In this document: piece by piece, positions 21,633 through 49,915 of the stretch
Layout: every line of letters begins with the position of its first letter
How positions within the stretch are numbered: position 1 is the first letter of the stretch
Source: Mariniblastus fucicola
GTDB taxonomy: Bacteria; Planctomycetota; Planctomycetia; Pirellulales; Pirellulaceae
Direction: 5' to 3'
DNA length: 64,000 bases
NCBI RefSeq assembly: GCF_008087665.1
Contig: NZ_CP042912.1
Span: 4,340,001-4,404,000 of the forward strand
The notes under the pieces: model-generated
Told to the model about the DNA's origin: nothing
Seen by the model: only the letters and a program-made list of their open reading frames with translations
Databases searched by the model: none
Program-made: the position numbers and the translations under genes

Positions 21633-21938
21633 TTTTTATACAACCGCTTGGCCTATCTTCGACGCGGCGCCTAGTCGACTTTCGGCTCAAACAAAGGGGA
21701 TGTCCGGGAATCAGCACCGACTGCTGAACCGGGTTTTCTCCAGACGCCTGATTCGATCGTTTGGCATGTCCAACGATCGTCTTTCTTTGCAAGTGTCCGG
21801 AACGCGCACAATTGATCACAGTTTCGACCGCTTGATTGTAATCAATGCGCACGCCGGGGTTCGTGCCAAGACCTCCAAGCGAACCCCTGAACCAATTTCC
21901 TCCCTACCCTGGACCACCGTTGAGACCTAAACTGACTC
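21633..21938. other. Gap between ISL3 copy 2 and rnpB
   Basis: No gene seen. Short open frames here are shadows. The rnpB promoter should lie in the right part of the gap, but no convincing -35/-10 pair was identified. Confidence 0.5.
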
Positions 21939-22292
21939 CGCTGGTCAGGTGATCGCTGGCGAATTTTTTTCGCGAGAGGAAAGTCCGGGCTTCGCAGGGC
22001 AGGGTGGTCGGTAACGCCGACCGGTCGAGAGATCAGGGACAGTGCCACAGAAAGCAAACCGCCGAACGGAGCGATACGTCGCTTGCGTGGCAAGGGTGAA
22101 ACGGTGAGGTAAGAGCTCACCAGCGCCGTTGGTGACTTCGGCGGCTTGGTAAACCCCACCCGAAGCAAGGCCAAACAGAAAGCAGTGGCGGCCCGCCGCG
22201 TTATGACTTTCGGGTAGGCTGCTTGAGCGTGTCAGCAATGGCTCGCCTAGATAAATGATCATCCACGACAAAACCCGGCTTACCGACCAGCA
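21939..22292 (+). ncRNA. rnpB: RNase P RNA (bacterial type A)
   Basis: Catalytic RNA of ribonuclease P, which trims 5' leaders of tRNA precursors. The hallmark blocks appear in order: GAGGAAAGTCCGGGC (P4/J3-4 side), ACAGAAAGCAAACCGCC, GGTAAGAGCTCACC, GGTAAACCCCACC, GGCCAAACAG, AGATAAATGATCATCC and ACAAAACCCGGCTTA. The outer P1 helix pairs GCTGGTC at the 5' end with GACCAGC at the 3' end, fixing both boundaries within a few bases. Total length is about 350 nt, normal for the type. A short T run follows the 3' end. Confidence 0.95.
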
Positions 22293-22350
22293 CTTTTTAC
22301 ATTTTCCGTTTTCGAATTAATCGATTGTCAACCGGCAGTTTCAAAACCGG

Positions 22351-48221: not shown

Positions 48222-48947
48222 ATGAGTCAAAACCCGTACCAATCCCCTCAAAATGCAGCGTGGACTACCGCGGACCTTGCATCCGTTGACGAACGTTCCA
48301 AGTTCATTCGCAACACCTATTTGCATGTTGCCGGAGCTTTTCTGGCGTTCGCGGCGATCGATGCGATTGCGTTAACCCTGTTTGGACCGCAAATCGAAAA
48401 GTTCGTCGGAGCAGTCACTCAAGGCTGGATGTGGCTGGTATTCCTCGGCGGCTTTATGGCCGTTAGCTTCATCGCAGATAAGTGGGCTCACAGCCGAACG
48501 TCTCGCTCGATGCAGTACGTTGGGCTTGGCTTGTACGTGGTCGCGGAAGCAATCCTGTTTCTTCCACTGCTGTTTGTCGCCAGCCGTTTTGCTGACCCAA
48601 CTGTCATTCCATCTGCGGGAATTCTGACGCTGGTCGTCTTCGGTGGACTCTCAGCCGTCGTTTTTTTGACCAAAGCCGATTTTTCCTTTTTGCGATACGC
48701 ATTGTGGATCGCTGGATTCGCTGCGATGGGCTTGATCGTTGCGTCGTTCTTCATGCCTATTAGCCTTGGCTTCTGGTTCTCTGCTGCAATGATTATCTAC
48801 GCAGCCGGATCGATCCTGTACAGCACGTCGAACATCCTGCACCACTACAACACAAACCAGCACGTTGCCGCTTCTTTGGCGCTGTTCTCTTCAGTTGCCT
48901 TGATGCTGTGGTACGTGATCCAGTTGTTCATGAGCTTCGACGAATAG
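48222..48947 (+). CDS. Bax inhibitor-1/YccA-family membrane protein
   Basis: 241 residues, about seven membrane helices, with the short 'SQNPYQSPQ' leader common in planctomycetes. The core (YLHVAGAFLAFAAIDAI, ASFFMPISLGFW and others) matches the BI-1/TMBIM-like family, which in bacteria includes YccA, a regulator of FtsH, and pH-sensitive Ca2+ leak channels. It precedes the LON-domain gene by 23 bases, so the two may be co-transcribed. Confidence 0.82.
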   Translation: MSQNPYQSPQNAAWTTADLASVDERSKFIRNTYLHVAGAFLAFAAIDAIALTLFGPQIEKFVGAVTQGWMWLVFLGGFMAVSFIADKWAHSRTSRSMQYVGLGLYVVAEAILFLPLLFVASRFADPTVIPSAGILTLVVFGGLSAVVFLTKADFSFLRYALWIAGFAAMGLIVASFFMPISLGFWFSAAMIIYAAGSILYSTSNILHHYNTNQHVAASLALFSSVALMLWYVIQLFMSFDE

Positions 48948-48970
48948 TCTTCGGTAAATAAAAGGCGCCT

Positions 48971-49672
48971 ATGTCAAATTCGGATTTTCAGATTCCTGAT
49001 TCGTTCGATGGCTCTGTGCGCCTTTTTCCGTTGCCCAATCTTGTCCTGTTTCCTGGAGTCGTTCAGGCGCTGAACCTGTTCGAACCACGTTACCGACAGC
49101 TGATGGCAGATGTGCTCAGCGACGACAATCTGATCACGATGGCGTTGGTCAAACCTGACCCGGAAAACCTGACGATGCCGGTTCCCGAAATCTGCAACAC
49201 GGTTTGTGTCGGGAAAGTGATGACTCATGCGAAACTCGAAAACGGCACTTACAATTTGCTGCTGGCGGGAGTGTCGCGAGCCGTGATCGTTGACGAACTG
49301 GCTTCGGACACGCTTTACCGGCAGGCCCGCGTGAAGCTGATCCCCGAAAAGTCTTTGCTCAACGCGGACGACAAGTCTCTGCGAACGAAACTGATTCAGC
49401 TGTTCAAGAATTCCCGTGGAGTCGAATCAGAATTTGATGAAGAGGCGCTGGACAAACTTGTCAGCGACAAAATCGAGGTCGGCCAGTTGGCGGACCTGGT
49501 TGCGTATGCTTCTGGCATCAGCCCGATGGAACAGCAGTTGATCCTCGAAACATCGGACGTTCGCGATCGAGTCGAAACGCTGATTTCGATGTTGGAACGT
49601 TTGAACGAAAAAGTCACTATGAATGATGGCGGCGATTCACGTGAGTTTCCGCCAGGCTTCAGCCTCAATTAG
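48971..49672 (+). CDS. LON substrate-binding-domain protein
   Basis: 233 residues. It contains the stand-alone LON N-terminal domain: VRLFPLPNLVLFPGVVQALNLFEPRYRQL and a following beta sheet region. No ATPase or Lon protease parts. Such proteins bind peptide or protein ligands; an exact role is not known. 12 bases downstream begins the selenoprotein gene in the same direction. Confidence 0.88.
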   Translation: MSNSDFQIPDSFDGSVRLFPLPNLVLFPGVVQALNLFEPRYRQLMADVLSDDNLITMALVKPDPENLTMPVPEICNTVCVGKVMTHAKLENGTYNLLLAGVSRAVIVDELASDTLYRQARVKLIPEKSLLNADDKSLRTKLIQLFKNSRGVESEFDEEALDKLVSDKIEVGQLADLVAYASGISPMEQQLILETSDVRDRVETLISMLERLNEKVTMNDGGDSREFPPGFSLN

Positions 49673-49684
49673 AGACAGAGTTAT

Positions 49685-49915
49685 ATGAAAGTCACAATCG
49701 AATACTGCGGCGCCTGAAACTATCTTCCACGAGCCTCCAGTTTGGCGGCAACAATCAAGGAAACTCTCAACGTCGACGCCGAGCTGATCAAAAGCAGTGG
49801 CGGCATCTACGATATCAAAGTCGACGACCGGCTCGTTTACTCCAAACGAGCAAACGGAAACCAGTTTCCTGAAAGCGATGGTGCCGTCGTGAAGTTGATT
49901 CAGGCAACGGCCTGA
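49685..49915 (+). CDS. Selenoprotein W-like (Rdx family) protein with in-frame UGA as selenocysteine
   Basis: 76 residues: MKVTIEYCGA-U-NYLPRASSLAATIK and onwards. The opening matches eukaryotic SelW (VYCGAUGY), with the CxxU redox site at residues 8-11. Downstream segments (DAELIKSSGGIYDIKVDD, RLVYSKRANGN) align with the SelW core and its final beta strands. Codon 11 is TGA (49715-49717) and the frame continues to a TGA at 49913. A hairpin fitting a bacterial SECIS follows the Sec codon. Likely a thiol-redox, thioredoxin-like small protein. It lies 12 bases after the LON-domain gene and probably shares its transcript. Alternative: a pseudogene with a nonsense codon, which the conserved motif and hairpin make unlikely. 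Confidence 0.85.
49733..49749 (+). promoter_or_regulatory. Candidate bacterial SECIS hairpin
   Basis: GCC-U-CCA, loop GUU, UGG-C-GGC: two three-pair stems around one U-C mismatch, with G as the first loop base 23 nt after the UGA. Bacterial SECIS elements share a guanine at the start of the apical loop and this kind of distance; SelB reads it to insert selenocysteine. Confidence 0.65.

Follow-up and report, generated by a model that had tools for sequence, protein, structure and literature searches.

The question raised by this locus is whether a short frame of Mariniblastus fucicola, interrupted by a UGA codon close to its start, is read through into a complete selenoprotein. The locus lies in a window of 64,000 nucleotides (the whole stretch of DNA analysed, to whose positions coordinates refer unless stated otherwise), within a genome assembled as a single contig of 6.57 Mb. 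Consistent with the original prediction of a 76-codon frame with two TGA codons and a Y-C-G-A-U motif at the first of them, the gene at 49685-49915 on the plus strand starts with ATG at 49685, continues for 10 codons to an in-frame TGA at 49715-49717 (codon 11), and proceeds through 65 sense codons to a terminal TGA at 49913-49915 (codon 77). Read through, it specifies a product of 76 residues, MKVTIEYCGAUNYLPRASSLAATIKETLNVDAELIKSSGGIYDIKVDDRLVYSKRANGNQFPESDGAVVKLIQATA, in which codon 11 occupies the putative selenocysteine (Sec) position of a C-G-A-U redox motif.

The predicted Rdx/SelW-like domain was confirmed by profile searches, as the read-through product scores above the cut-offs of both Pfam Rdx (PF10262; 57.9 bits, E 1.2e-15, cut-off 22.6) and NCBIfam TIGR02174 CXXU_selWTH (47.2 bits, cut-off 34.2). 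The second NCBIfam match, to the equivalog NF041051 (SelTWH_Campy), has the better E-value of the two (72 bits, E 3.7e-20) but falls below its curated cut-off of 88, and the gene is therefore not filed under that equivalog. As a control for chance, both strands of the window were searched for frames with a start, at least 8 codons, a TGA and at least 45 further codons, with C or T at -3 or C at +3. This anatomy is shared by 21 frames including the SelW gene, and none of the 20 other read-through frames matches a Pfam family at E≤0.001. Anatomy alone is thus no evidence for a selenoprotein gene and the case is carried by homology, according to which the SelW-type UGA gene in the window is real.

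The genome encodes the functions needed for Sec insertion. Genes for selA (555.4 bits), selB (355.7 bits) and selD (265.1 bits) all score over their curated cut-offs, and a tRNA-Sec gene (selC) is located at C1:3476450-3476545 of the genome contig (70.1 bits, over the gathering score), where ARAGORN also reports a tRNA-SeC with anticodon tca. All of these sel genes are more than 100 kb away from the SelW gene. Since the four are present, the main objection foreseen by the original prediction, a genome lacking Sec genes, is excluded. An open frame of 730 aa (C1:4274854-4277046; L105:355-2547, plus strand) has SelD as its C-terminal part; we take its N-terminal part to resemble an NADH dehydrogenase, and the SelD active site presumably carries Cys rather than Sec.

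Relatives of the gene are widespread and most retain the UGA. Of the 99 genomes searched, our own among them, 55 have matches at E≤0.001, in every case including one with an in-frame TGA, and the UGA form is present in 23 of the 27 other genomes of the genus. A scan of genome contigs added at least 23 loci, whose record titles include Planctomycetota, Desulfobulbaceae, Myxococcota, Gemmatimonadales, Rhodospirillales and others. No relative is encoded by the 100 stretches of viral contigs that fitted a pattern, and the plasmid collection yielded only two weak records with 34-37% identity. Codon 11 in 82 parsed genes is TGA in 74, TGC in four and TGT in three, with one mis-anchored sequence (L100, a copy of the second SelW-like gene described below); two Cys-type second copies (L098, L099) were left out of the parsing. 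Of the TGA genes, 73 belong to the window gene's type and the remaining one to the second type, and two loci outside the script's set (L070, L079), checked separately, both carry UGA, giving 75 UGA genes of the window type including our own. Among the seven Cys genes, L049, L055 and L056 are close homologues, which read MKVTIEYCGGC with TGC and all derive from records titled Planctomycetota, while the other four form a more distant Cys group. Tyr7, Cys8 and position 11, at which U and C were both entered as C, are invariant in an alignment of 35 sequences chosen as part of the set, mostly those easily cited by coordinate.

This distribution bears on the possibility that the gene is a decayed copy or an assembly error, in which an ancestral Cys codon has turned into a stop and the remainder is a relic. 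A single point change separates UGA from TGC or TGT, and TGC is what the three close Cys homologues carry, but the identical UGA codon recurs in the 75 parsed genes of the window type with the frame otherwise open. The homologue comparison proposed with the original prediction thus returned both U and C at codon 11, without frames that are broken elsewhere too. Furthermore, purifying selection acts on the codons past the UGA in all 14 of the pairs compared, which were chosen by hand, with pN/pS (Nei-Gojobori) of 0.07-0.37 over 61-69 codons. This is a strong argument against a relic, and with the UGA and its following codons conserved across independent assemblies we consider decay or misassembly next to impossible.

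A comparison of Sec genes across the 99 genomes revealed an association with the UGA form. selB was found over its cut-off in 51 of the 55 UGA-form genomes versus 12 of the 44 others (four with UGA only, 32 with neither), and tRNA-Sec of at least 60 bits in 50 of 55 versus 10 of 44 (five with UGA only, 34 with neither). Taking either gene as evidence, the counts are 54 of 55 and 12 of 44 (one with UGA only, 32 with neither; Fisher p 6e-15, for genomes that are non-independent through relatedness). The 60-bit cut was set after the scores were seen, because the Rfam gathering score of 47 is also passed by a second group of matches at 47-54 bits; the one match just under the cut (58.9 bits) comes from G054, where another match scores 69.8 bits. 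Among the UGA-form genomes, selB over the cut-off is missing in G002, G004, G029 (99% complete) and G051, and tRNA-Sec of 60 bits in G004, G022, G032, G041 and G087, leaving G004, which is 80% complete, as the only one without both. The named records derive from 23 genomes, 21 of which also have selB, the exceptions being two of 20 UGA-form genomes (G106, G115). The expectation that Cys-form genomes lack selB was rejected, as all three encode it. The Cys form is thus not simply a consequence of machinery loss, and it seems that a Cys form can be retained alongside a Sec system.

An alternative explanation is that the UGA is decoded as an ordinary amino acid, by Trp or Cys insertion or near-cognate read-through, with no selenocysteine involved. 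In its favour, UGA is read through at low level in bacteria. Against this, the window gene itself ends in UGA, and its relatives end in TAG (33), TGA (31) or TAA (17) among 81 genes counted without L100, indicating that UGA is still a working stop in these organisms. The association of the UGA form with selB and tRNA-Sec also argues against ordinary decoding, as does a SECIS-like hairpin downstream of the UGA, and we regard this alternative as extremely improbable. Sec insertion at codon 11 is, on these sequence comparisons, almost certain, and the original reading of the UGA as selenocysteine is supported by the profile match, the four Sec genes and the U/C pattern in homologues.

The hairpin is located at 49733-49749 on the plus strand and comprises a seven-pair stem, with one mismatch in the window copy, and a 3-nt loop (GUU). 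It starts 15 nt after the UGA, with 22 nt separating the loop G from the UGA, and this G is invariant in the 73 sequences compared (two of the 75 UGA genes of the window type, L070 and L079, are left out of the hairpin analyses because they were missed by the script's tblastn). Compared with synonymous resampling the hairpin region is more stable than expected, with a mean z of -1.67 over 73 genes (27 with p<0.05), versus -0.01 (two genes with p<0.05) and -0.17 (five genes) in two control regions of the same genes. The structure was first named from single folds and then tested by counting the seven stem pairs over 72 distinct rows against 500 shuffles. Stem cells are paired in 85.3% of cases versus 76.5% when shuffled, double-changed cells number 49 versus 15.1, and the covariation score is 0.347 versus 0.177, values reached by none of the 500 shuffles, while shifting the stem partners by 1-3 columns leaves 22-49% of cells paired. 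One of five measures, the number of pairs changed on both sides, is not above the shuffles (4 versus 3.2; 110 of 500). We conclude that the SECIS-like hairpin covaries across relatives.

Other observations count against the hairpin. Three of the seven stem pairs are unpaired in 16-26 of the 72 rows, the window copy taken alone is not significant (z -1.0, p 0.14), and RNAalifold returned no consensus pairs on the 48-nt alignment. At the hairpin place the close Cys homologues L049, L055 and L056 have z of -1.52, -1.24 and -0.18, respectively, and the four distant Cys genes show no negative z; as L049 and L055 are also negative, regional stability is not strictly tied to UGA. At Rfam gathering scores, the only hit in the window was RNase P, a bacterial class A RNA at 21937-22298 (291.5 bits).

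An AlphaFold2 model built from the 35 aligned sequences (pLDDT 94.5) has the order strand-helix-strand-strand-strand-helix and a thioredoxin-like fold, with the C8-G-A-U11 motif close to the N-terminus, where strand 1 (residues 3-8 in the model) ends. A Foldseek search of the PDB placed 2fa8, 3dex, 2obk, 2ojl, 2oka and 2p0g at the top (E 6e-7 to 2e-5), the nearest chains being 2fa8 and 3dex at 6e-7. All 23 matches at E≤0.001 are SelW-type, SelW or MIEN1 chains, with thioredoxins next at 1.5e-2, and a profile search of PDB sequences likewise recovered SelW-type proteins and MIEN1 (2ljk), in total eight distinct sequences. Combining homology, UGA conservation, purifying selection, the Sec machinery, the covarying hairpin and the predicted fold, we hold with very high confidence that the gene encodes a small thioredoxin-fold SelW (Rdx) selenoprotein with Sec at codon 11, inserted via SelB and the hairpin, and a putative Cys8-Sec11 redox centre. 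By this mechanism SelB would bring Sec-tRNA(UCA) to the UGA at codon 11, guided by the downstream hairpin, the ribosome would insert selenocysteine there, and the UGA at codon 77 would terminate translation. By analogy with the family, Cys8 and Sec11, paired where strand 1 ends, may then serve as a selenenylsulfide/thiol redox centre.

Beyond the fold, the sole functional lead, and a testable one, is the neighbouring gene. A stand-alone LON substrate-binding-domain gene (PF02190, 116.7 bits) is located at 48971-49672 on the plus strand, 12 nt upstream of SelW. At all 24 of the SelW loci in the genus, the window's own among them, a LON-domain homologue precedes SelW on the same strand at a distance of about 200 nt or less. 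Outside the genus such a neighbour occurs at one SelW locus only (L013, from another genus), and none was observed at the other SelW loci within the flanks covered, mostly 1.5 kb. The homologues outside the window's own locus show identities of 39 to 76%. The gene further upstream at 48222-48947 on the plus strand, which we take to encode a Bax-inhibitor-like membrane protein, has homologues in 22 loci (own included), and the order upstream gene, LON-domain gene, SelW is conserved in the genus (48222-49915 in the window). Judging by gene order in one genus and one neighbour, the LON-domain gene is a probable operon partner of SelW.

This arrangement also raises the possibility that the early UGA additionally acts as a selenium-dependent switch, with only a 10-residue peptide made when selenium is lacking and possible effects on the mRNA of the upstream partner. 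Sec codons are generally known to compete with termination, and both the very early position of the UGA and the LON-domain gene 12 nt upstream would suit such a role; yet the switch would add to Sec insertion rather than replace it, and we consider it very unlikely. Under Sec insertion as the preferred reading, a larger though still doubtful proposal is that SelW in this genus acts together with the LON protein, as a Sec redox protein with a protein-quality-control adaptor, in a lineage that would also have made a second, divergent SelW-like selenoprotein. If true, this would provide a concrete partner for a bacterial SelW.

A different neighbourhood was observed in five relatives (L106, L107, L108, L109, L110), where selB is no more than about 3.5 kb away from SelW. 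In G032, G071, G081 and G034 it is located some 2.8-3.2 kb before selB-selA, with selA right after selB, and in G049 it is about 1.4 kb from selB and divergent. SelW as part of a Sec operon was rejected, since other ORFs intervene in the two genomes inspected (G032, G081), and the proximity is thus only a neighbourhood.

A second SelW-like UGA gene, divergent from the first, is located elsewhere in the genome, beyond the limits of the window, at C1:1130591-1130839 (L102:1998-2246, plus strand). Its predicted product of 82 residues (MQIKIIHCPTUQSYVPK...) carries a CPTU (CPxU) motif and an extra C-terminal segment, and scores above the cut-off for Pfam Rdx (26.7 bits, cut-off 22.6) and below the cut-offs of both NCBIfam models. 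Searching with this gene gave matches in 18 of 60 genomes, 10 of them of the second type at E≤1e-25 (our own and nine others, all of the same genus, with UGA in 10 of 10), the rest being weak matches to the first SelW type. Folding of three copies gave a hairpin with loop AGUUA downstream of the UGA in each. G005, where the search for first-type SelW found no match, has the second type.

Comparison with known structures places the window gene within an established family. The SelT/SelW/SelH-type structures (2fa8, 3dex, 2obk, 2oka, 2ojl, 2p0g) share its fold and profile match and differ in length, with chains of 103-108 residues versus 76, and 2fa8 has CxxC where the window gene has CxxU (one alignment compared). 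Mouse SelW (2npb) belongs to the same family with a weaker match (profile E 2.1e-7, Foldseek E 2e-4) and presumably carries the CxxU motif, as does the window gene.

Bacterial Sec-containing SelW-like proteins have been described since 2005 as an abundant family (PMC1088965, PMC1794560, PMC2398784), and the window gene thus enlarges a known family. In these surveys, SelW-like proteins were the most abundant family of the Sargasso Sea set (48 Sec, 7 Cys) and, with CxxU, led the GOS table (427 Sec versus 56 Cys) (PMC1088965, PMC1794560, PMC2398784). The Sec form thus prevails over the Cys form in both ocean sets, while the reverse held for the genomes sequenced by 2005 (4 Sec, 20 Cys); the function was termed unclear in the survey of that year (PMC1088965). 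The survey passages on the family mention neither this lineage nor a LON-domain neighbour (PMC1088965, PMC1794560, PMC2398784). Sec-insertion genes and selenoproteins have been reported in two planctomycete genomes, in a paper whose main text does not contain the term SelW (PMC4807772). Among the matches listed from the open-access literature on SelW or selenoproteins in planctomycetes or Pirellulaceae, no paper concerns this gene, going by titles and the starts of abstracts. What is less usual here is the LON-domain gene order kept throughout the genus and the second divergent SelW-like UGA gene. The locus is also a clean example of a gene that would be misread by stop-to-stop gene calling, for which the Sec case can be built from one genome and its relatives. 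A further difference from mammalian SelW is that SECIS elements of eukaryotes are located in the 3' UTR (PMC1088965). As far as the survey passages describe them, bacterial SelW-like selenoproteins have in common with the window gene the CxxU motif, a short SelW-type domain and a post-UGA hairpin with a conserved G in its apical loop (PMC1088965, PMC1794560, PMC2398784), and no essential difference between them and the window gene was found.
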